NCBI RefSeq assembly: GCF_025231485.1
Contig: NZ_CP104003.1
Coordinates: 2,790,001 to 2,854,000, forward strand
Length of the DNA stretch: 64,000 bases
Direction: 5' to 3'
Origin: Salinirubellus salinus
GTDB lineage: Archaea > Halobacteriota > Halobacteria > Halobacteriales > Haloarculaceae
The notes beneath the pieces were generated by a model. It was not told the DNA's origin. It saw only the letters and a list, made by a program, of their open reading frames with translations, and did no database searches. A program made the position numbers and the translations under genes. Below are positions 49,268 through 59,133 of this stretch, one piece after another (positions within the stretch are counted from its first letter, which is position 1; each line of letters begins with the position of its first letter).

Positions 49268-49639
49268 TCAGTCACCTCTGAGGAGCAGGACGAGGACGAC
49301 GACGAACACCACCTGGACGACCTTGTCGACGAGACCGAGGGGACTGAACGAGGGCGCGTTCACGACGTACCAGGCGACGATCTGCCCGAGTGTGAACGGG
49401 ATACCCAGGAGGTAGAACAGCCGTCGCCGGTAGTCGACGAGTACTGCGCCTGCCCCGACGAGAAAGGCGACACCGGCCAGAATGAAGCTGATGCCGAACC
49501 CGTTGAGCCCGAACGAGGCCCCCAGCCCGAGGTGGAGGACACCCGTCACGACGGCGAGGACGACCCCCGCCCAGTGGAGCGACGTCATCGAGTCGGTGGC
49601 GAGTGAGAAGCCCCCACTTGCCGTGTTCTGTGTTGCCAT
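49268..49639 (-). CDS. DUF7475-like small membrane protein
   Basis: A 123-residue protein from ATG 49639 with four hydrophobic segments. The start MATQNTASGGFSLATDSMTS and HWAGVVLAVVTGVLHLGLG match the haloarchaeal membrane family known as DUF7475. It may belong functionally with nothing nearby; it precedes the glycosyltransferase on the same strand by only 27 bases in coordinate, so the two may share a transcript. Confidence 0.65.
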   Translation of the reverse strand: MATQNTASGGFSLATDSMTSLHWAGVVLAVVTGVLHLGLGASFGLNGFGISFILAGVAFLVGAGAVLVDYRRRLFYLLGIPFTLGQIVAWYVVNAPSFSPLGLVDKVVQVVFVVVLVLLLRGD

Positions 49640-49665
49640 ACGCACTCGATGGACGCCAACCGCTT

Positions 49666-50769
49666 TTACTTCAGGATGGCGGCGACGTGTTCGCGCATCG
49701 CCGCAGCGAAGCGCTCGCTCCCGAACCGGTCACGGGGCAGAAACGGGCGCAGGTCGGTCTCGACGGCACTCGCAACTCGGTCGACCGCACCGTCGAGGTC
49801 GTCGAACAGGAGTCGTCGGTCGCCGTCCAGTACGTCTACTTGTCCCCCGTCGGCGGGAGCGAACGGGAGCATTCCGGCGGCGACGTACTCCGCGACGGCC
49901 ATCCCGAAGTGCTCTCGTGGCTTCGCGTTGAGTCCGTAGCGGTAGCGGCCGAGGAGGTCGGTGATTCGTTCGCGGGAGACGTCCGTCTCGACGCCGAGGT
50001 ACGGGCGCTCGGCGGCCGCTCGTCGGACCCGGCCGACGTACTCACGGTAGGCCGGCGGTGCAGCCCCGACGATACGGCCGGTGAGGTCGTAGCCCCGCTC
50101 GCGAAGCCTGTCGAGAACCTCGACTGCCTCCAGAGTCCGCTTGTCGGGTGCGATGCGCCCAAGGACGAGGACCCCGTGCTCGCGCTCGGTCCAGGGCCGC
50201 CCGTCGATACGGTCGACCGGGGGGTGACACACCGTGGGTCTGATCCCGTAGAGGCGCTCTACGACGTCGGCGGTCCACGCGGAGTTCGCGACCAGTCTGG
50301 TCCGGCGATCGGCCGGGGCCTCCGGTCCCGCTAGCCGGGTCCAGACTCGGTTCAGGGCGCTCGTCTCGGCGGCTTCGGTCCGGGTGAGACGGAACTGCGG
50401 GAAGTGGACGTACTGGACCGACGGCCCGGGGATCGAGAGCTCGTTCGCAGTGCTGACGACGGCGTCGAACGAGTCGAGCCGACGCCGACAGAGGAGTCTG
50501 AGCAGCGTTGTCCGTGCCGCCAGTTGTGGCCCCACGAACGGGCCGAGCGCCTCAAATCCGGCCGCGAGGGCCGTCGCGCCCGGCGGCTGGACCACGTCGG
50601 CCTCGAGCGAGATGTCGAAACGGTCGGCCAGCGTCACCGGGTCCGTCTTCGAGGCCGTGAACAGCGTCACGTCGTGGTCCTCGGCCAGCGCCGCACACGC
50701 GTGGAGACAGACGGCGTCCGCGCCGCCCTGGAAGTCCAGTGTATTGTGAAACACCGCGACGCGAGCCAT
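49666..50769 (-). CDS. Family 4 (GT-B) glycosyltransferase
   Basis: A 367-residue protein from ATG 50769. It starts MARVAVFHNTLDFQGGADAV, has SIPGPSVQYVHFPQF and HGVLVLGRIAPDKR, and ends with the acceptor/donor motif KPREHFGMAVAEY, whose Glu-x7-Glu pair is that of retaining GT4 enzymes. The layout resembles ALG11-type mannosyltransferases. It diverges by 101 bases from the seven-gene operon beginning at 50871, suggesting joint function in making a glycosylated product. Confidence 0.8.
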   Translation of the reverse strand: MARVAVFHNTLDFQGGADAVCLHACAALAEDHDVTLFTASKTDPVTLADRFDISLEADVVQPPGATALAAGFEALGPFVGPQLAARTTLLRLLCRRRLDSFDAVVSTANELSIPGPSVQYVHFPQFRLTRTEAAETSALNRVWTRLAGPEAPADRRTRLVANSAWTADVVERLYGIRPTVCHPPVDRIDGRPWTEREHGVLVLGRIAPDKRTLEAVEVLDRLRERGYDLTGRIVGAAPPAYREYVGRVRRAAAERPYLGVETDVSRERITDLLGRYRYGLNAKPREHFGMAVAEYVAAGMLPFAPADGGQVDVLDGDRRLLFDDLDGAVDRVASAVETDLRPFLPRDRFGSERFAAAMREHVAAILK

Positions 50770-50870
50770 ACCGTCCCGACGCCCGCCGTGGATTTGAATC
50801 CCGGCATCACCGACCGTCTCGGGGCCGAGTCCCGGCATCACCGACCGGAAGACCGGACTACTTGTCTTGA

Positions 50871-52877
50871 ATGGCCGTATATGCAGGGGTGGACTGCGCG
50901 TTGGTCGGGGCGGGAAGCGTCGCCGAACGGTACGTCACTGGAGTCGGTGAGTCCTCGCTCCGGGTCGTCGCGGTCTGTGATCTCGACCGCGACCGGGCGG
51001 AGACGCTCGCCACGCGTGTCGGTGACGCAACTGTCTACACCGACCTGGAGACGATGCTGGGCACCGAGTCGGTCCCGCTGGTCGTGAACCTCACCAGCCA
51101 CGGGGCACACGCCGGTGTCACCCGGGCGTGTCTCCGGGCCGACCGCCACGTATTCTCCGAGAAGCCGCTCGCGCTCGAGGCCGAGACGGCGGCCGAACTC
51201 GTCCGGACGGCCGCCGACCGTGGGCTCGCGCTCGGCTGTGCGCCGGAGAACCACCTGGCCGATGCACAACGACACGCCCACACACTCGCTACGGACGGCC
51301 GACTCGGGACCGTCCGGTTCGCGAGCGCCACGGCCAACGTCGGTCGTGTCGACGAGTGGCACGACCGGCCGGAGTCGTTCCTCGCCGTCGGCCCCCTGTT
51401 CGACGGGGCGGTCTACCCGCTCTCGCTGCTCGTCGCCTGGTTCGGCCGCGTCGACCGGGTCCGACGGGCCGACGCCCTCGAAGTGTGGTCGGGCGACCGG
51501 CCCGAGGCGGCCGCGGCTCCACCACACGTGGAGGCGACACTGGAGTTCGTCGACGGCCCCGTCGTCGCGCTCCGTGCGAGCTTCTACGTCGACCACCGGA
51601 GCCGCGAGTTCTACGGGCTCGAACTCCACGGCGACGACGGCACGCTCTACCTCGAGGATACCGGGGCGCTGGCGGCCGACCGGGATGCTGTCACCGTCCG
51701 CGGTGGTGAGCGTGAACCGACCGTCGCGCCCCATCCGCAATCGCGGCGCGCGCGGCCACACGCGGCCGGGCCAGCCAGACTCGCCCGGTCGGTCGAGCGG
51801 GGCCGACCGAGCAGAGCGGGGGCCCGGCGTGCCGCCCACGTGGTCGCGGTCTGCGAGGCGATAGGGGCCGCCGCCACGGGTGACGGTGGCCCGGTCCCTG
51901 TCGAGGACGGCCTCGGTGGCGATCTCGGTCGTCGGGCATCCAACGGTCCGCCGCCGGTCCGTCCCCCAGCCACCGCGGCGAGTCACGAGGGCGGGTCCAC
52001 GATACGGCTCCCCCCGATCGGATTCGGCTGCTCGCGCTACCGTGGCGACGGCGAGTACGTCGAGCCAGCGCTCGGGGCGGCACTCGACACGGGCTACCGG
52101 CTGTTCGACACCGCCGAACTGTACGGGAACGAGTGGCGACTCGGCGACCTCCTCGCCGGGGCTGGCGCCCCCGACCGCGAGTCGACATTCCTGCTCGGCA
52201 AGCCCTGGCGGACGAACCACGGCCCCGGGCACCTGCGCCAGGCCTGCGAGGGGTCGCTCGACGAACTCGGTGTCGACGCGTTCGATTGCTACGCGCTCCA
52301 CTGGCCCGACGCGTGGGCCCACCGCGGCGAACTCCGCGAACTCTCCACGCTCCCCGTCACCGAGCAGGAACAGCTGACGTTTCCGACCGACGAGACGGGC
52401 GACCCGGTCCGGGCCGACCACTCGCTCCGCGAGACGTGGTCGCGACTGGAAGCGCTGTACGACGACGACCTCACGCGGACGCTCGGCGTGTGTAACGTGA
52501 CGTGCCCGCAGTTGGCTCGACTGGTCGAGGAGGCGCGGGTCCCGCCAGCACTGGTCCAGGTCGAGCGCCACCCGTACCGCCCCCGCACCGACCTCGTCGA
52601 GTGGTGCCACGCACGAGGAATCCGCGTGGTGGCCCACTCGCCGCTCTCGGCCCCGGGGTTGCTGACCGACCCCGTCGTCGAATCGGTCGCCGACACTGCC
52701 GGCGTGACGCCCGCGCAAGCCGTGCTGGCGTGGAACGTCGCCCGCGGCGTGGTCCCTATCCCGTCGACGACGAGCGTCGACCACGCCGTCTCGAACCTGG
52801 CGGCCGCTCGCTGCCGACTCGACGACCGGGCGGTGAATCGGCTGGACGACCTCGAGACGCCGGGGGTCGAGCGATGA
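50871..52877 (+). CDS. Gfo/Idh/MocA oxidoreductase - aldo/keto reductase fusion
   Basis: A 668-residue two-enzyme fusion. Residues 1-340 are a Gfo/Idh/MocA dehydrogenase (ALVGAGSVAERYV dinucleotide motif, FSEKPLAL at 94-101, VGPLFDGAVYPLSLL). Residues 380-668 are an aldo/keto reductase with an intact tetrad: Asp and Tyr in FDTAELYGNE, Lys in LLGKPW and His in YALHWPD; the C-terminal IPSTTSVDHAVSNL binds the cofactor phosphate. The segment joining them is Arg/Pro-rich and looks eroded. First gene of an operon whose following start overlaps its stop. Sugar or side-chain ketone chemistry is likely. Confidence 0.82.
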   Translation: MAVYAGVDCALVGAGSVAERYVTGVGESSLRVVAVCDLDRDRAETLATRVGDATVYTDLETMLGTESVPLVVNLTSHGAHAGVTRACLRADRHVFSEKPLALEAETAAELVRTAADRGLALGCAPENHLADAQRHAHTLATDGRLGTVRFASATANVGRVDEWHDRPESFLAVGPLFDGAVYPLSLLVAWFGRVDRVRRADALEVWSGDRPEAAAAPPHVEATLEFVDGPVVALRASFYVDHRSREFYGLELHGDDGTLYLEDTGALAADRDAVTVRGGEREPTVAPHPQSRRARPHAAGPARLARSVERGRPSRAGARRAAHVVAVCEAIGAAATGDGGPVPVEDGLGGDLGRRASNGPPPVRPPATAASHEGGSTIRLPPIGFGCSRYRGDGEYVEPALGAALDTGYRLFDTAELYGNEWRLGDLLAGAGAPDRESTFLLGKPWRTNHGPGHLRQACEGSLDELGVDAFDCYALHWPDAWAHRGELRELSTLPVTEQEQLTFPTDETGDPVRADHSLRETWSRLEALYDDDLTRTLGVCNVTCPQLARLVEEARVPPALVQVERHPYRPRTDLVEWCHARGIRVVAHSPLSAPGLLTDPVVESVADTAGVTPAQAVLAWNVARGVVPIPSTTSVDHAVSNLAAARCRLDDRAVNRLDDLETPGVER

Positions 52878-53704
52878 CCGCGATGGAGGTCCCGGCCACG
52901 CTCGAGGGACGGTGGTGGCTGACAGGGGCCGTCGCACTCCTCTCGGCCACGCTCGTCGCCGTGGCGGCTGCGGACGCGCTATCGCCCGCTGCCGCCCTGC
53001 TGTGGCTCCTCGTCGCCTCGGTCCCGCTTGGCTACACGCTCTGGTTCCTCTGGCGGTCGCTGGCGCTCAACCATCCCCCCGAGTCGACGACCCCGACGGC
53101 TACGGTCCCCGACGGCGGCACGACGGTGTACCCGACACTCGGGCTGGCGAACGGCATCACTCTCGGCCGCGGGTGGCTCTACGCCGGCGTGGCCGGCTTC
53201 GTCCTCGTGACACCCCCCGTCGACAGCGTCTGGCGGTGGCTGCCCGCGCTCTGGTACGGCGGCGGCGCCGCGCTGGACTGGGTCGACGGGCTCGTCGCCC
53301 GCCGGTCCGACCGACAGACGGTACTCGGCGAGCGCCTCGACCTGGCGTTCGACACGATGGGGTTCCTGGTCGCGCCAGTCGTAGCAGTCGCGTGGGGGGC
53401 GCTCCCGGTCTGGTACCTCTCGGTGTCGGCGGCGCGCTACTGCTACCGGTTCGGCTGCTGGCTCCACGAACGGCGCGGCGGGACGGTCGGTGACCTCCCC
53501 GAGAGCCGCCTCAGACGGCCGCTCGCTGGCCTCCAGATGGCGGTCGTCGCCCTGGCGCTCCTCCCGGTCGTCCCGCCGCGTCTCGCGTGGCCCGCAGCGA
53601 CGCTCGCGATGGCCCCCTCGCTGGCCGTCTTCGCCCGTGACTACCTCGTGGTCACCGGGCGGCTCGGCATGCCGAACGCTCAAGACTCGACGAACCAATC
53701 ATGA
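52874..53704 (+). CDS. CDP-alcohol phosphatidyltransferase family protein
   Basis: A 276-residue membrane enzyme. The CDP-alcohol motif begins DWVDGLVARRSDRQTVLG near residue 136 and continues ERLDLAFD, keeping all the Asp, Gly, Ala, Arg and spacing positions of the family. Two hydrophobic segments precede it and several follow. It transfers a phospho-alcohol from a CDP-linked donor. Its ATG overlaps the upstream stop by four bases and its stop overlaps the next start, so the operon is translationally coupled. Confidence 0.83.
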   Translation: MTAMEVPATLEGRWWLTGAVALLSATLVAVAAADALSPAAALLWLLVASVPLGYTLWFLWRSLALNHPPESTTPTATVPDGGTTVYPTLGLANGITLGRGWLYAGVAGFVLVTPPVDSVWRWLPALWYGGGAALDWVDGLVARRSDRQTVLGERLDLAFDTMGFLVAPVVAVAWGALPVWYLSVSAARYCYRFGCWLHERRGGTVGDLPESRLRRPLAGLQMAVVALALLPVVPPRLAWPAATLAMAPSLAVFARDYLVVTGRLGMPNAQDSTNQS

Positions 53705-54495
53705 CACACGTGAATACCCCCCGCGACGGCGGCGTCAGACTCGCCGTCGTCCAGCTCGACGACTACGGCCCGTGGACGACCACGCCCGAGCCGCGACGAG
53801 AGACCGACCTCCAGGCCCTCCAGGCCCGGCTGTTCGCGACGGTCGCCGACTTCTTCGGCGACCGCGACGGCTACGCCTTCGCCGGCCGCTACGACAACAT
53901 GCTCGGCGTAGCGAACCACATCGACCCCGAGGCGTTCACCCGGCTTCAAGAACGCGTCGCGAACCAGTACCCCGTGACGGTCAGCGTCGGCGTCGGCACG
54001 GCACCGACACCCGTGGCGGCGCTCGAAGCCGCTGGAGACGTGCTCCAGGCGGCGGGGAGCGCACAGGAGACGGACCGGCGCGAGGTCCTCGACCACCGTG
54101 TGGTCGACGGAGCCACCCCCGGGACGCTCACGGTCGCACACTTCGACGTGGTGGACGTGACCGGCGAACTGACAGACCGCGTCTCCCCCGACGTGGCCGA
54201 GCGGACCGTCCGCCGGACGATGCTGGCGCTCTCCGAACGGCTCGCCGAGGAGCACGCCGCAGTGACGCAGTTCGTCGGCGGGGACAACGCTATCGCCGTC
54301 TGCCCCGACGTCGGTCGACCGGCCCTCGAGTCCGTCCTCGAACACGTCCGGTCGGAGACGGGCGTCGAACTCCAGGTCGGCGTGGGACACGGTCCGAGTG
54401 CGCACGCCGCGGGGTTCGAGGCGAAACACGCGCTCGAGGCGTGTCGGGCGACCGGCAGCCGCATCGAAGGGCCCTGGGGGGTGGCCGACGACTGA
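53701..54495 (+). CDS. arfA: GTP cyclohydrolase III
   Basis: A 264-residue archaeal GTP cyclohydrolase III. It opens VRLAVVQLDDYGPWT and has the family's GRYDNMLGVAN and the later FVGGDNAIAVCPD, the two ferredoxin-like halves with metal-binding Asp residues. The enzyme turns GTP into the formamidopyrimidine nucleotide FAPy, the first archaeal step towards riboflavin and F420. Here it sits with a pterin-synthase homologue, a dehydrogenase and a methyltransferase, which is unusual for a riboflavin gene and central to the operon hypothesis. Confidence 0.88.
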   Translation: MTHVNTPRDGGVRLAVVQLDDYGPWTTTPEPRRETDLQALQARLFATVADFFGDRDGYAFAGRYDNMLGVANHIDPEAFTRLQERVANQYPVTVSVGVGTAPTPVAALEAAGDVLQAAGSAQETDRREVLDHRVVDGATPGTLTVAHFDVVDVTGELTDRVSPDVAERTVRRTMLALSERLAEEHAAVTQFVGGDNAIAVCPDVGRPALESVLEHVRSETGVELQVGVGHGPSAHAAGFEAKHALEACRATGSRIEGPWGVADD

Positions 54496-54496
54496 G

Positions 54497-55513
54497 ATGG
54501 CCCCGACAGAGACCCGTTCGCTCTACTTCGACGCGCCGGAGTCCGTCGAGATACGCACCGAACCCCTGGACGAACTCGGTGCAGACGAACTGTGCGTCGA
54601 CACCATCGCCTCCGGCATCAGCCCGGGGTCCGAGCTACTCGTCTACCGGGGCGAGTTCCCGGACGGGATGGCCGTCGACAGCACCATCGACGCGCTCGAC
54701 GGCGCCTTCGAGTATCCGCTCCGGTACGGCTACGCCGCCGTCGGCGAGGTGACACGCGTCGGGCGCGAGGTCGAGGAGGAGTGGCTCGGTCGGCAGGTGT
54801 TCGCGTTCGTCCCGCACGCCAGCCGGTTCCACACGACCCCCGACGCGGTGGTACCGGTGGACGACGCCGTCGACGCCACGGAGGCGACGCTGCTCCCGTC
54901 GGTCGAGACCGCGACCAACCTCGTCCTCGACGGCCGACCGCGCGTGGGTGAACGGGTCGTCGTCTTCGGGGCCGGACCGGTCGGCCTCTGTACGACGCAC
55001 GTCCTCTCGCAGTTTCCGCTCGACCGACTCGTCGTCGTCGAGCCCATCGCGTCACGGCGCGAACTCGCCCGCGGGGTGGGAGCCGACCACGTCGTCGACC
55101 CCGAGACGGTCGCGTCGGTGCTCGACGACTGCGACGGGGACGGGGCCGACCTCGTCTACGAGCTCTCGGGCCAGCCGGCGACGCTCGACGCCGCCGTCGA
55201 CGTCGCCGGCTACGACAGCCGTGTCCTCGTCGGGTCGTGGTACGGGACGAAGCGGGCCCCCATCGACCTCGGCGGGTCGTTCCACCGCGAGCGCATCAGC
55301 ATCGAGTCGAGTCAGGTCAGCACCATCGACCCGTCGCTCCGTGGCCGGTGGGACCGGTCACGCCGGTTCGACACCGCGTTCGACCACCTCCGACGGCTCG
55401 ACACCGACCTCGTCCTGACGGAGGCGGTCCCGTTCTCCCGGGCGGCCGAGGCGTACCGTCGACTCGATCGCCGTGCGGTCGAGGCCCCACACGTCGTCCT
55501 CACCTACCCATGA
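54497..55513 (+). CDS. Zinc-type (MDR) alcohol/sugar dehydrogenase-like protein
   Basis: A 338-residue medium-chain dehydrogenase/reductase. GISPGSELLVYRGEFP and YPLRYGYAAVGEVTRVG form the catalytic half, VFGAGPVGLCTTHVL the nucleotide fold. The usual Cys zinc ligand of the GHE motif region is not visible, so its chemistry may differ from classical zinc alcohol dehydrogenases. Starts one base after the GTP cyclohydrolase III stop and overlaps the next gene by four bases. It probably reduces or oxidises a side chain of the operon's product. Confidence 0.75.
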   Translation: MAPTETRSLYFDAPESVEIRTEPLDELGADELCVDTIASGISPGSELLVYRGEFPDGMAVDSTIDALDGAFEYPLRYGYAAVGEVTRVGREVEEEWLGRQVFAFVPHASRFHTTPDAVVPVDDAVDATEATLLPSVETATNLVLDGRPRVGERVVVFGAGPVGLCTTHVLSQFPLDRLVVVEPIASRRELARGVGADHVVDPETVASVLDDCDGDGADLVYELSGQPATLDAAVDVAGYDSRVLVGSWYGTKRAPIDLGGSFHRERISIESSQVSTIDPSLRGRWDRSRRFDTAFDHLRRLDTDLVLTEAVPFSRAAEAYRRLDRRAVEAPHVVLTYP

Positions 55514-55932
55514 CCGACACCTACCGCGCACGACAGCCCGACGAACCGTACCGGCTGATGGTCCGCCGGACGTTCATCGCACAGCACTTCCTCACGGTGC
55601 CCGACCCGGGGCCGGAGGGAGAGGTCCACAGCCACGAGTTCACCGCGGAGGTCGAGTTCGCGGCCCCCGAGCTCGGGGAGTACGGCTACGTGGTCGACAT
55701 CGACGCGGTCGAGGCGGCACTCGACGAACTGGAGGGCCGCTACCGCGACAGCCTCCTGAACGACCTCCCGGAGTTCGGGGACGAGAACCCGAGCGTCGAG
55801 CGGTTCGCCCGCCTGTTCGGTGACCGACTGGCGGCCGCACTCGACGACCCCACGCCGACACGACTCCTCGTCAGGATGTGGGAGGACGACCTCGCGTGGG
55901 CGAGCCACGAGCGCGTGCTCACAACGGAATGA
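55510..55932 (+). CDS. 6-pyruvoyltetrahydropterin synthase/QueD homologue lacking catalytic Cys
   Basis: A 140-residue member of the PTPS/QueD fold. Zinc His residues are kept: FIAQHFL near residue 25 and EVHSHEF near 41-43. The Cys that normally stands between these motifs is absent; the protein contains no Cys at all. Known PTPS variants with altered active sites carry out other pterin side-chain reactions. YVVDIDAVEAALDEL and a final WEDDLAWASHERV fit the family. Coupled to genes on both sides by ATGA overlaps. Confidence 0.75.
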   Translation: MTDTYRARQPDEPYRLMVRRTFIAQHFLTVPDPGPEGEVHSHEFTAEVEFAAPELGEYGYVVDIDAVEAALDELEGRYRDSLLNDLPEFGDENPSVERFARLFGDRLAAALDDPTPTRLLVRMWEDDLAWASHERVLTTE

Positions 55933-56831
55933 GCGACGCTCCCGACGGCCACGACCACGCTCGACCGCGCTACCTGACGGCCAAGCGGTCCGTCGACGAG
56001 CGGGCACGCGACCGGCGGGTGCTGTCGCGACTGGTCGAGACGCTCCCGGACCGGCCAAGGGTCGGCGAGGCCGGCTGTGGCACCGGGCTGTCGGTCCCGA
56101 CGCTCCACGACTGGGGTATCCGGCCTGGCACCTACCACGGAGCCGATACCGACCCTCGCATCGTCGCGTTCGCCCGCTGGCTCGTGCCACGGGTGCTCCG
56201 ACGACGGGAGCTGGACGTCACGGCGACGCCGACGGGCTGCCGGGTCGGGCGTTCGAGCGAGACCGACCTGGCCGTCGCCTTCGACGCCGACGACGCGCTG
56301 ACGGCACTCCCGAGCGCCGCACCGGACGAGGGGTTCGACCTCGTCCTCGCACAGTCGTTCCTCGACCTCGTGCCGGTCGAACCAGCCCTCGAGGCGTTCG
56401 GCCGGGCCGTCGGCGGGGACGGCCTCGTCTACGCGCCACTGACGTTCGACGGCGAGACCATCTTCCTCCCCGAGCACCCTGCCGACGAGCGCGTCTCGGA
56501 GGCGTTCCACGCGGCCATCGACGCCACGCCCGGGCGCGACAGTCGAGCGGGTCGACACCTCCTCGACCGACTCCGCGAGCGTGGCGCACGGGTCGAGGCG
56601 GTCGCCGCGTCCGATTGGATCGTCGGGCCGTCGCCCGGCGGGGAGTATCCCGCCGACGAGCGGTACTTCCTCGCGTGCATCCTCGAGTTCGTCGCCGACG
56701 CTCTCGGGGGCGTCGAGGGGAGCGAGGAGTGGCTGGCGACCCGCCGACGCCAACTGCACGCGGGGGAACTGACGTACGTCGCCCACGGCTACGACCTCCT
56801 CTGGCGACCCGCCGAGGTGACCGACCGGTGA
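55929..56831 (+). CDS. SAM-dependent methyltransferase-like protein
   Basis: A 300-residue Rossmann-type methyltransferase from ATG 55929, which overlaps the preceding stop. GEAGCGTGLSVPTLHDWG near residue 47 is motif I, and the acidic HGADTDPRIV follows as motif II. FDLVLAQSFLDLV resembles motif IV. The C-terminal part is less typical. Substrate unknown; by context it would methylate the operon's product. Confidence 0.72.
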   Translation: MSDAPDGHDHARPRYLTAKRSVDERARDRRVLSRLVETLPDRPRVGEAGCGTGLSVPTLHDWGIRPGTYHGADTDPRIVAFARWLVPRVLRRRELDVTATPTGCRVGRSSETDLAVAFDADDALTALPSAAPDEGFDLVLAQSFLDLVPVEPALEAFGRAVGGDGLVYAPLTFDGETIFLPEHPADERVSEAFHAAIDATPGRDSRAGRHLLDRLRERGARVEAVAASDWIVGPSPGGEYPADERYFLACILEFVADALGGVEGSEEWLATRRRQLHAGELTYVAHGYDLLWRPAEVTDR

Positions 56832-57382
56832 TGGTCGTCACCCACGTCGCCGTGGCGCTGGCGTTCGCCGTTCCAGTCGCGCTGGCCGCCCCACAGTTCG
56901 CGACGCCAGCGGCGGTCGGTGCCATCGTGGGCGGGGTGTTCCCGGACCTCGACCTGCTCGTGGGTGAGCACCGGCGGACGCTCCACTTCCCGGTGTTCGG
57001 CCCCGTGCTCGCGGTTCCCGGCGTCGTACTCGCGTTCCTCGTTCCGACCCCGCTCACGGTGGCGCTCGCACTCGCACTCGTCGGGGGCGGTCTCCACAGC
57101 GCGAGCGACGTGCTGGGGGCGGGTGAGGAACTCAGACCGTGGGAGCGGACCAACACGAACGCGGTCTACGACCACGTCTCCGGCCGCTGGTGGCAGGCGC
57201 GCTACGTGTTCCCCTACGACGGCTCACCGCAGGACCTCGGGCTGGCGGTGGTCGCGGGCGTCCCGGTCTTGCTGGTGTACGACGGGCCGGTTCGGTGGGG
57301 GCTCGGTGCGGCCCTCGGTGTCGCGGTCGTGTACGCCGTGTTGCGACGTCGGCTGGTGCCGTACTTCGAACGGATCCTGTAG
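56831..57382 (+). CDS. Membrane protein, metal-dependent hydrolase (DUF457)-like
   Basis: A 183-residue membrane protein whose start overlaps the previous stop by one base. FPDLDLLVGEHRRTLHFPV near residue 38 matches the DLD...H-R-x-xHS/HFP motif of YdjM/DUF457 membrane hydrolases. Four or five hydrophobic segments. It closes the operon. A role in membrane anchoring or lipid modification of the product is possible but unproven. Confidence 0.72.
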   Translation: MVVTHVAVALAFAVPVALAAPQFATPAAVGAIVGGVFPDLDLLVGEHRRTLHFPVFGPVLAVPGVVLAFLVPTPLTVALALALVGGGLHSASDVLGAGEELRPWERTNTNAVYDHVSGRWWQARYVFPYDGSPQDLGLAVVAGVPVLLVYDGPVRWGLGAALGVAVVYAVLRRRLVPYFERIL

Positions 57383-58015: not shown

Positions 58016-58825
58016 TCACGGCACGAGTTCTTCGAGGTCGTCGGGGTCCTCGGGCGTCACCGGTGTCGCGCGTTCGCGGCAGCGCTCGAACAGGTCGACC
58101 GCCCACTCGTAGACGGTCTCGTCGTCGGTCACGAGGCCACCCTTAGCCACCCCCTGCTCGTCGGTCAGGTTGATGCCCACGGTCTCGTCGACGATACCGA
58201 CCGACATCGGGACCTCCTCTGAGACGGAGATGTGGACCGTCTCCTCCTCGAGCATCTCGCTGAACTGTCGCGCGGCGGTCGGGTGGTCGAGGGTGACCTC
58301 CAGGACGCTGGGGGTGAGTACCATCTCGAGACGCGTGTCCCCGTGGACCGTCATCTCCCAGTGGTTCTCGACGAGGACGGGCGCGACCGTGGTCGCGACG
58401 CCGCGGAGGTGGTCGCCGGAGCGGTGGAACTCGAGCACTCGTCTGACGAACGCCGTCGCGTCACTCCCGTCGAGGACGACGACCTCGGCGTCGCGGAGGC
58501 ACCGGACGTCGAACGGCACCGGGTCGACCGGCAGCCACTGCAGGGGCTCACGGAGGCGTCGTTCGGTCTCGACCTGGTCGAGCAGGTGGTCGAACTCGTC
58601 GTAGATCCACTCTCCCAGCGGCGTCGCGTCGTACTCCTGTCCTACCCCCTCGACCCAGTGGCGCTCGCCGAGTTCCCGGAGGATGCGTGCGATAGTCACC
58701 CGTGAAGCGTCGACCAGTTCCCCGATCTCGTGTCGACTGCGCGGTGCCTCCACGAGCGTCTCGAACACCGCCACTCGGTTCTCGGAGTTCGCGAGGAACG
58801 CGATGTCGTCGAGTGCCGTGTCCAT
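58016..58825 (-). CDS. Winged-helix regulator with FilR1-type middle domain
   Basis: A 269-residue regulator from ATG 58825 (frame open to 58852). The N-terminal winged helix reads FLANSENRVAVFETLVEA and SRHEIGELVDASRVTIARI. The rest matches the DUF1724/FilR1 domain of archaeal regulators (PVDPVPFDVRCLRDAEVVV, EMLEEETVHISVSEEVPMSVGIV). The FilR1 domain often senses a small ligand. It is divergent from the SnoaL gene at 59134. Confidence 0.8.
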   Translation of the reverse strand: MDTALDDIAFLANSENRVAVFETLVEAPRSRHEIGELVDASRVTIARILRELGERHWVEGVGQEYDATPLGEWIYDEFDHLLDQVETERRLREPLQWLPVDPVPFDVRCLRDAEVVVLDGSDATAFVRRVLEFHRSGDHLRGVATTVAPVLVENHWEMTVHGDTRLEMVLTPSVLEVTLDHPTAARQFSEMLEEETVHISVSEEVPMSVGIVDETVGINLTDEQGVAKGGLVTDDETVYEWAVDLFERCRERATPVTPEDPDDLEELVP

Positions 58826-59133
58826 CCTCGACAGAGGCACACAGTAGGTCAAGAAACTACTGTCGGCGTGGGTACGCGTGAAGAGACTATCTCTCGAAGG
58901 TGCACACCGCCTGCGGCGACGTCACGCCGGCCCGTCGCCGGGGGCCGACGGACGGCTGCGAGCACGAAGCCACTGCCGTGTTCACCCCAGGTACGACGAA
59001 GACACCGTGACGGCCGTGCCCCCAGTAGGCAGAGCACACATCGAGCACGCTCCGACCACCACGGCCAAGGCGAGACCCGGCGAAGGGAGTTCCTGAAGGG
59101 TCCCCCGTCCGGCACTCGACCTGCTACAGTCTT

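Follow-up and report, generated by a model that had tools for sequence, protein, structure and literature searches.

In the haloarchaeon Salinirubellus salinus, we examined an operon located at positions 49666-57382 of a 64,000-nucleotide stretch of contig NZ_CP104003.1 (this whole stretch is called the window below). The original prediction had proposed that this operon, which contains a gene for GTP cyclohydrolase III (GCH III), may make a modified, glycosylated pterin. The eight genes named there were found to be present and, according to Pfam and NCBIfam profile matches, to belong to the families announced (Table 1). Seven of them follow each other on the + strand with spacings of -4, -4, +1, -4, -4 and -1 bases and ATG starts throughout, and the GT4 glycosyltransferase gene is divergent from them. 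The gene of the small DUF7475 protein, just outside these limits, had been missed; it was counted as a member of the cluster because its homologs mostly adjoin the CDP-alcohol transferase gene in other genomes.

Table 1. Position, strand and basis of assignment of the cluster genes in the window.
Feature	Position	Strand	Basis of assignment
DUF7475 small membrane protein, four hydrophobic segments	49268..49645	-	PF24287 1.1e-12
GT4 glycosyltransferase, divergent	49666..50769	-	PF13439 7.5e-07
Gfo/Idh/MocA-aldo/keto reductase fusion (Gfo-AKR)	50871..52877	+	PF01408 5.2e-17, PF00248 1.4e-40
CDP-alcohol phosphatidyltransferase, membrane protein	52874..53704	+	PF01066 3e-14; motif DWVDGLVARRSDRQTVLGERLDLAFD
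GCH III, cluster-specific ArfA paralog	53701..54495	+	PF05165 4.8e-90
MDR dehydrogenase, BchC-like	54497..55513	+	PF00107 3.1e-14; best NCBIfam model bchC below cut-off
PTPS-fold protein	55510..55932	+	PF01242 2e-25
Class I S-adenosylmethionine (SAM) methyltransferase	55929..56831	+	weak Pfam; conserved relatives; predicted fold
YdjM-like membrane protein, accessory	56831..57382	+	PF04307 below cut-off

The conservation of this gene set was followed from the MDR gene, which is the core of the cluster. A scan centred on it gave 80 loci, 58 of them haloarchaeal, 13 from Chloroflexi, eight from Gammaproteobacteria and one from a Deltaproteobacterium, the MDR relatives being 44-58% identical in archaea and bacteria. 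Within 6 kb of the MDR gene, a PTPS gene was present in 71 of the 80 loci, a GT4 gene in 63, a methyltransferase gene in 52 and a CDP-alcohol transferase gene in 47; DUF7475 homologs were found at this distance in 35 of the 58 haloarchaeal loci. When whole genomes were surveyed from the PTPS gene, the MDR gene was located at 1.5 kb or less in all 30 close relatives. In 20 PTPS-centred loci picked down the match list, GT4 (20/20), MDR (15/20) and methyltransferase (14/20) genes lay within 6 kb, and a YdjM-like gene was present in six. The GT4 gene has the same position and orientation as in the window in loci L035, L042, L044, L048, L064, L081, L116 and L175, and the Gfo-AKR fusion occurs in about 20 haloarchaeal loci. 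Thus, the recurrent set consists of a GTP-opening enzyme, the MDR dehydrogenase, the PTPS fold, the GT4 glycosyltransferase, the class I methyltransferase and the CDP-alcohol transferase. As this set recurs in both haloarchaea and bacteria (Chloroflexi, Alpha-, Gamma- and Deltaproteobacteria and Actinobacteria), conservation extends beyond the GTP cyclohydrolase, a point on which the original prediction depended.

Furthermore, annotated plasmids added clusters from Streptomyces, Microbacterium, Rhizobium, Methylosinus, a rhodobacterium and Thiodictyon. Since these bacterial versions are plasmid-borne, the cluster has probably been transferred horizontally. The Microbacterium version (L123) is carried by a 59-kb mobilizable plasmid, others by megaplasmids. 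The Streptomyces plasmid H37 bears a PTPS-IV gene without the remaining cluster genes, and the presence of a PTPS gene by itself is therefore no proof of the pathway.

At the GTP-opening end of the cluster, GCH III is confined to archaeal loci (22/58), and the unrelated GCH II is found in 8/13 loci of Chloroflexi and 8/8 of Gammaproteobacteria. A RibD_C reductase, either stand-alone or fused (to RibA in Chloroflexi), is encoded in 21 of the 22 bacterial loci and in none of the 58 archaeal ones; its nearest structure is the archaeal reductase 2azn for L105 and B. subtilis RibD for L104. This restriction to bacteria would be understandable if, in archaea, ArfC already supplied the ribityl diaminopyrimidine needed for riboflavin. 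In the annotated cluster neighbourhoods that were read, neither a deaminase nor a lumazine synthase was present. Without the deaminase, the ring would retain its 2-amino group, as in pterins and unlike in flavins and F420. All the cluster versions point to 2,5-diamino-6-ribosylamino-4(3H)-pyrimidinone 5'-phosphate (DARoPP), an early riboflavin intermediate, with its 2-amino group kept.

The deformylation step deserves a separate examination. A 2006 study by Spoonamore is reported to have found that SCO6655, a GCH II homolog of Streptomyces coelicolor, halts at the formylaminopyrimidine nucleotide (FAPy/AFRPP) as GCH III does, owing to the replacement of a Tyr by Met. Among the 18 cluster RibA proteins, this switch position is occupied by Tyr in 17 and by Met only in S. 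fungicidicus, which has a matching cluster, and it is in S. fungicidicus alone that a creatininase gene adjoins the cluster RibA gene. If a Met-type RibA goes no further than the formyl intermediate, its cluster should also encode a deformylase; the S. fungicidicus case, being a single one, is no more than suggestive of this. FAPy formamidase activity has been proven for BrbF, a creatininase-family protein (PMC9478397). A creatininase gene also lies near the cluster in Haloarcula, and the source genome encodes two GCH III, four creatininases and one RibD_C.

The window GCH III keeps the active-site motifs QxDxYGPWT, RxDNM, AHFD and FVGGDN of its family. The second GCH III of the source genome, encoded elsewhere (L002) next to a uridine-kinase-like gene, is a canonical ArfA. 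In a tree of 55 GCH III sequences, the window protein was placed outside the canonical ArfA clade, in a window-type clade (support 100/100) of which 13 of the 14 rows come from clusters; the active-site motifs are retained in both clades. Within the family to which the window belongs, 11 of the 14 genomes that have a close PTPS gave two GCH III matches, as against 4 of the 17 that have no PTPS (Fisher P 0.004, a value that ignores kinship).

Two further observations concern the riboflavin pathway. A genus that is probably Halorhabdus (g6) has a bacterial-type GCH II and lumazine synthase in 7/7 genomes (G050, G079, G089, G140, G145, G269 and G314) and no canonical ArfA in the 6/6 covered by the GCH III search, its riboflavin enzymes having apparently been replaced by bacterial ones. 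In its clusters, a full-length GCH III is kept in G050 and a shortened match in G269 and G314. In addition, a HAD-family hydrolase gene that adjoins arfA and is divergent from it (L091:8019-8873, - strand), with equivalents in other Haloferax and in Halohasta, could encode the phosphatase still missing from the riboflavin pathway (EC 3.1.3.104).

For the PTPS-fold protein, a zinc site made of H26, H40 and H42 was recognised. H26, H42 and Glu125 are invariant among the close relatives and H40 nearly so, and Glu125, invariant in the PTPS alignment, is the residue that anchors 2-amino-4-oxo rings. Glu36 stands at the position of the QueD catalytic Cys (Cys27). The predicted model (pLDDT 91) had as its nearest solved structure SCO6650 of Streptomyces coelicolor (PDB 3d7j, Z 17.7), followed PTPS/QueD structures with Z values of 15-18, and its closest folds were all pterin enzymes. 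On the basis of the modelled fold, the zinc histidines and the anchor Glu, the protein is assigned to the PTPS superfamily (T-fold). However, SCO6650 shares 29% identity with it, and its motif is of the FGPAQ type and lacks the third zinc His.

The assignment to a subfamily was based on motifs. The CxxxHGH motif of QueD (PTPS-I) is absent, the window protein having ExxxHSH instead. In comparison with the ExxHGH motif of PTPS-III, Glu36 is one residue further off and HSH replaces HGH; nevertheless, the function may be similar to that of PTPS-III. The PTPS of Plasmodium likewise has a catalytic Glu (titles of PDB 3lze and 3m0n). The FGPAQ signature of PTPS-IV is also lacking, and PGPEGEVHSHEF is found in its place.

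PTPS-IV (COG0720 subfamily IV; AGeNNT cluster 62) has been described as a PTPS-fold gene near GCH II (PF00925) and RibD_C genes, with no product given (PMC5445326). The Streptomyces, Microbacterium, Rhizobium, Methylosinus, rhodobacterial and Thiodictyon clusters carry FGPAQ; they share the MDR and the methyltransferase with the window, and all except one also have GT4. In contrast, the PTPS of the window, of Chloroflexi and of the L086-type Gammaproteobacteria has no FGPAQ and shows the full H...HSH zinc site with Glu36. The GCH II and RibD_C neighbourhood is found for the bacterial relatives, whereas archaeal loci have GCH III or no GTP-opening enzyme and carry no RibD_C. Sequence comparison thus presents the window PTPS as related to PTPS-IV yet marked by a motif of its own. 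The cluster is a variant of this partly published neighbourhood rather than a wholly new kind.

Concerning the tailoring enzymes, the MDR dehydrogenase, as read from its sequence, is devoid of the usual zinc ligands. The methyltransferase model (pLDDT 93, Z 20 to 3mgg) gave a confident SAM-methyltransferase fold, which resembles many small-molecule methyltransferases and, as a model, names no substrate; a PDB sequence search returned no match for the methyltransferase or for GT4. Since archaea, Chloroflexi and Gammaproteobacteria have invariant methyltransferase residues in common outside the SAM site, these sequences suggest that the enzyme acts on one shared substrate. The Gfo-AKR fusion is probably involved in sugar or polyol tailoring, and the motif D-x2-DG-x2-AR-x8-G-x3-D-x3-D of the CDP-alcohol phosphatidyltransferase is intact. 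The proteobacterial clusters include LPG_synthase_TM, YceI-like and cytochrome b genes, which hint at a membrane-related product; the cytochrome b and YceI-like genes suggest a membrane redox link. Genes of these last two types are located at L118:12512-13069, L120:10997-11536 and L101:7964-8560. Downstream of the operon in the window, a gene for a FilR1/HVO_A0261-type transcriptional regulator (58016-58852, - strand) adjoins a cupin gene.

We consider it fairly probable that the operon represents the haloarchaeal form of a cluster, widespread and as yet uncharacterised, whose product is a decorated small molecule of the pterin type derived from GTP. In such a pathway, GCH III would open GTP to FAPy, which a creatininase-family deformylase encoded elsewhere in the genome would convert to DARoPP. 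An ArfC of the RibD_C type, also encoded elsewhere, would then reduce the ribosyl chain to ribityl without deamination, leaving a pterin-like 2-amino-4-oxo ring. The polyol chain and the ring would next be the substrates of the MDR dehydrogenase and the PTPS-fold protein. In a simple option, MDR would oxidise the ribityl 2'-hydroxyl to a ketone, which would close on the 5-amino group to form a 7,8-dihydroneopterin-type pterin, and this pterin would be trimmed or rearranged by the Glu-type PTPS. This re-oxidation of the ribityl chain followed by ring closure is a purely theoretical scheme; we propose it because RibD_C and MDR would then serve a common purpose. GT4 would add a sugar, tailored by Gfo-AKR in some lineages, the methyltransferase would methylate the product, and the CDP-alcohol transferase and the membrane proteins may be responsible for attaching or handling a phospholipid-linked form.

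The route from GTP to DARoPP is well grounded in family membership, conserved motifs and the replacement of the first enzyme by an unrelated one across phyla. We infer the ribosyl reduction from bacterial gene content, and likewise infer all that follows DARoPP, namely ring closure, the order of the steps and lipid attachment, the lipid link being the weakest. A broader proposal, which we regard as rather unlikely in its full form, is that of a GCH I-independent pterin route in archaea and bacteria. GCH II or III and RibD_C/ArfC would be followed by MDR re-oxidation at C2', dihydropterin closure and the action of a Glu-type PTPS, and the pterin would then be glycosylated, methylated and possibly phospholipid-anchored to serve as a membrane redox or light-protecting factor.

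The pathway can be compared with known systems. It shares its first steps, the conversion of GTP to DARoPP and onward to the ribityl compound, with the archaeal entry to riboflavin and F420 (ArfA-ArfB-ArfC); however, genes for a deaminase, a lumazine synthase or F420 synthesis are absent from the cluster, which contains PTPS, MDR, GT4, methyltransferase and CDP-alcohol transferase in addition. The cyanobacterial pterin glycosides (cyanopterin, biopterin glucoside), glycosylated and sometimes methylated pterins made via GTP cyclohydrolase I and biopterin, are the kind of product proposed here.

Several points weigh against a decorated pterin made by a dedicated cluster. We know of no product, mutant or enzyme assay for genes of the window type, and some loci are devoid of the CDP-alcohol transferase, Gfo-AKR, methyltransferase or GCH gene. 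The Tyr/Met rule derives from SCO6655 and is supported by a single Met case. The Haloferax cluster GCH III falls in the canonical clade, and deletion of HVO_1284 in H. volcanii results in riboflavin auxotrophy (PMC8305020). In Caldilineaceae, the cluster GCH II (a RibA-RibD_C fusion) is the sole GCH II of the genome; no GCH I of the PF01227 type was found there by a search that covered PF01227 and not the FolE2/MptA types. It follows from the Haloferax and Caldilineaceae cases that the GTP enzyme is not dedicated everywhere, and the idea that it always is was dropped on account of the latter. The Caldilineaceae loci with the fusion are L063, L074, L077, L078, L104, L108 and L110. Moreover, the window protein does not conserve the PTPS/QueD catalytic residues, so that the reaction cannot be read from the window sequence, and a retained ribityl-pyrimidine would fit these data as pterin ring closure does.

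This last point leads to a first rival, in which the product would be a ribityl- or sugar-carrying 2-amino-pyrimidine or an 8-ribityl-pteridine, formed without any dihydroneopterin-type pterin as intermediate, and another ring or side chain would be built by MDR and PTPS. The presence of a ribityl-forming reductase in nearly all bacterial clusters, wasteful if the ribityl were merely re-oxidised, speaks for it, as does a PTPS without the QueD/PTPS catalytic signature. However, PTPS-fold enzymes of known function act, to our knowledge, on bicyclic pterins or purines, in line with the pterin enzymes nearest to the window fold, and we hold this rival to be possible and considerably less probable than a pterin. 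The operon could also merely boost the supply of riboflavin or F420 precursors, with the remaining genes as neighbours without a joint role. The original prediction had cautioned that GCH III classically serves this pathway, of which it is the archaeal entry enzyme; the caution holds good for the canonical-type Haloferax copy, in view of the HVO_1284 phenotype, and loses force in the source genome, where a canonical ArfA is encoded separately. The single GCH II of Caldilineaceae and an unpublished remark tying PTPS-IV to F420 (PMC5041015) also favour mere supply. Yet PTPS, MDR, GT4 and methyltransferase stay together across phyla, 153 of the 391 haloarchaeal genomes have no match to the window PTPS, and in the probable Halorhabdus G050 the cluster GCH III persists alongside a riboflavin-type GCH II. 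In addition, an Rfam scan detected no flavin mononucleotide (FMN) riboswitch in the window or in eight bacterial loci. CofH/FbiC had a match in 6/7 gammaproteobacterial cluster genomes and in none of ten from Chloroflexi (two at chromosome level), which rules out F420 as the general product. Plain riboflavin supply is an unlikely role, and the supply explanation as a whole is improbable.

The link to the haloarchaeal halopterins (phospho- or sulfohalopterin), raised in the original prediction, fared less well. Haloarcula marismortui, the organism from which halopterins were isolated, does possess the cluster, on pNG700, with GT4, CDP-alcohol transferase and a sulfatase-like gene. Its PTPS gene (strain ATCC 43049) is, however, frame-shifted within the zinc-binding stretch in both deposited plasmid records (L113:9990-10400; L180), which are identical in sequence at this point, and that of H. 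sinaiiensis is intact. The cluster is also common to many bacteria, and a search of the literature available to us found no paper on the cluster as such or mentioning halopterins. As nothing ties the cluster to these compounds, we judge their specific synthesis to be very unlikely. Hardly more credible, and if anything slightly less so, is a locus for a glycolipid or a surface polymer (GT4, CDP-alcohol transferase, Gfo-AKR, methyltransferase) lying beside an unrelated GTP-derived gene set. Sugar- and lipid-type enzymes do dominate several variants, and the two halves are on opposite strands in some loci (L033-L046), but MDR, PTPS and GT4 remain tightly associated even where CDP-alcohol transferase and Gfo-AKR are missing (Haloferax, Caldilineaceae). 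From the glycosylated pterin originally proposed, a dedicated GTP-derived pathway was thus retained, supported by the cross-phylum conservation, the cluster-specific GCH III paralog, the PTPS anchor Glu and the constant GT4 partner; a pterin is its best-fitting putative product, and the charge and the lipid and halopterin links are conjecture.

The occurrence of the same enzyme types with unrelated first-step enzymes, from haloarchaea to bacteria and several times on plasmids, points to a small molecule of general use, and the conserved genes indicate which enzymes to test first, one at a time. In this cluster setting, PTPS proteins without the QueD motif are annotated as QueD (6-carboxytetrahydropterin synthase). 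The result speaks against the idea that such clusters serve F420, and it offers a reason for the presence of two GCH III genes in many haloarchaea.

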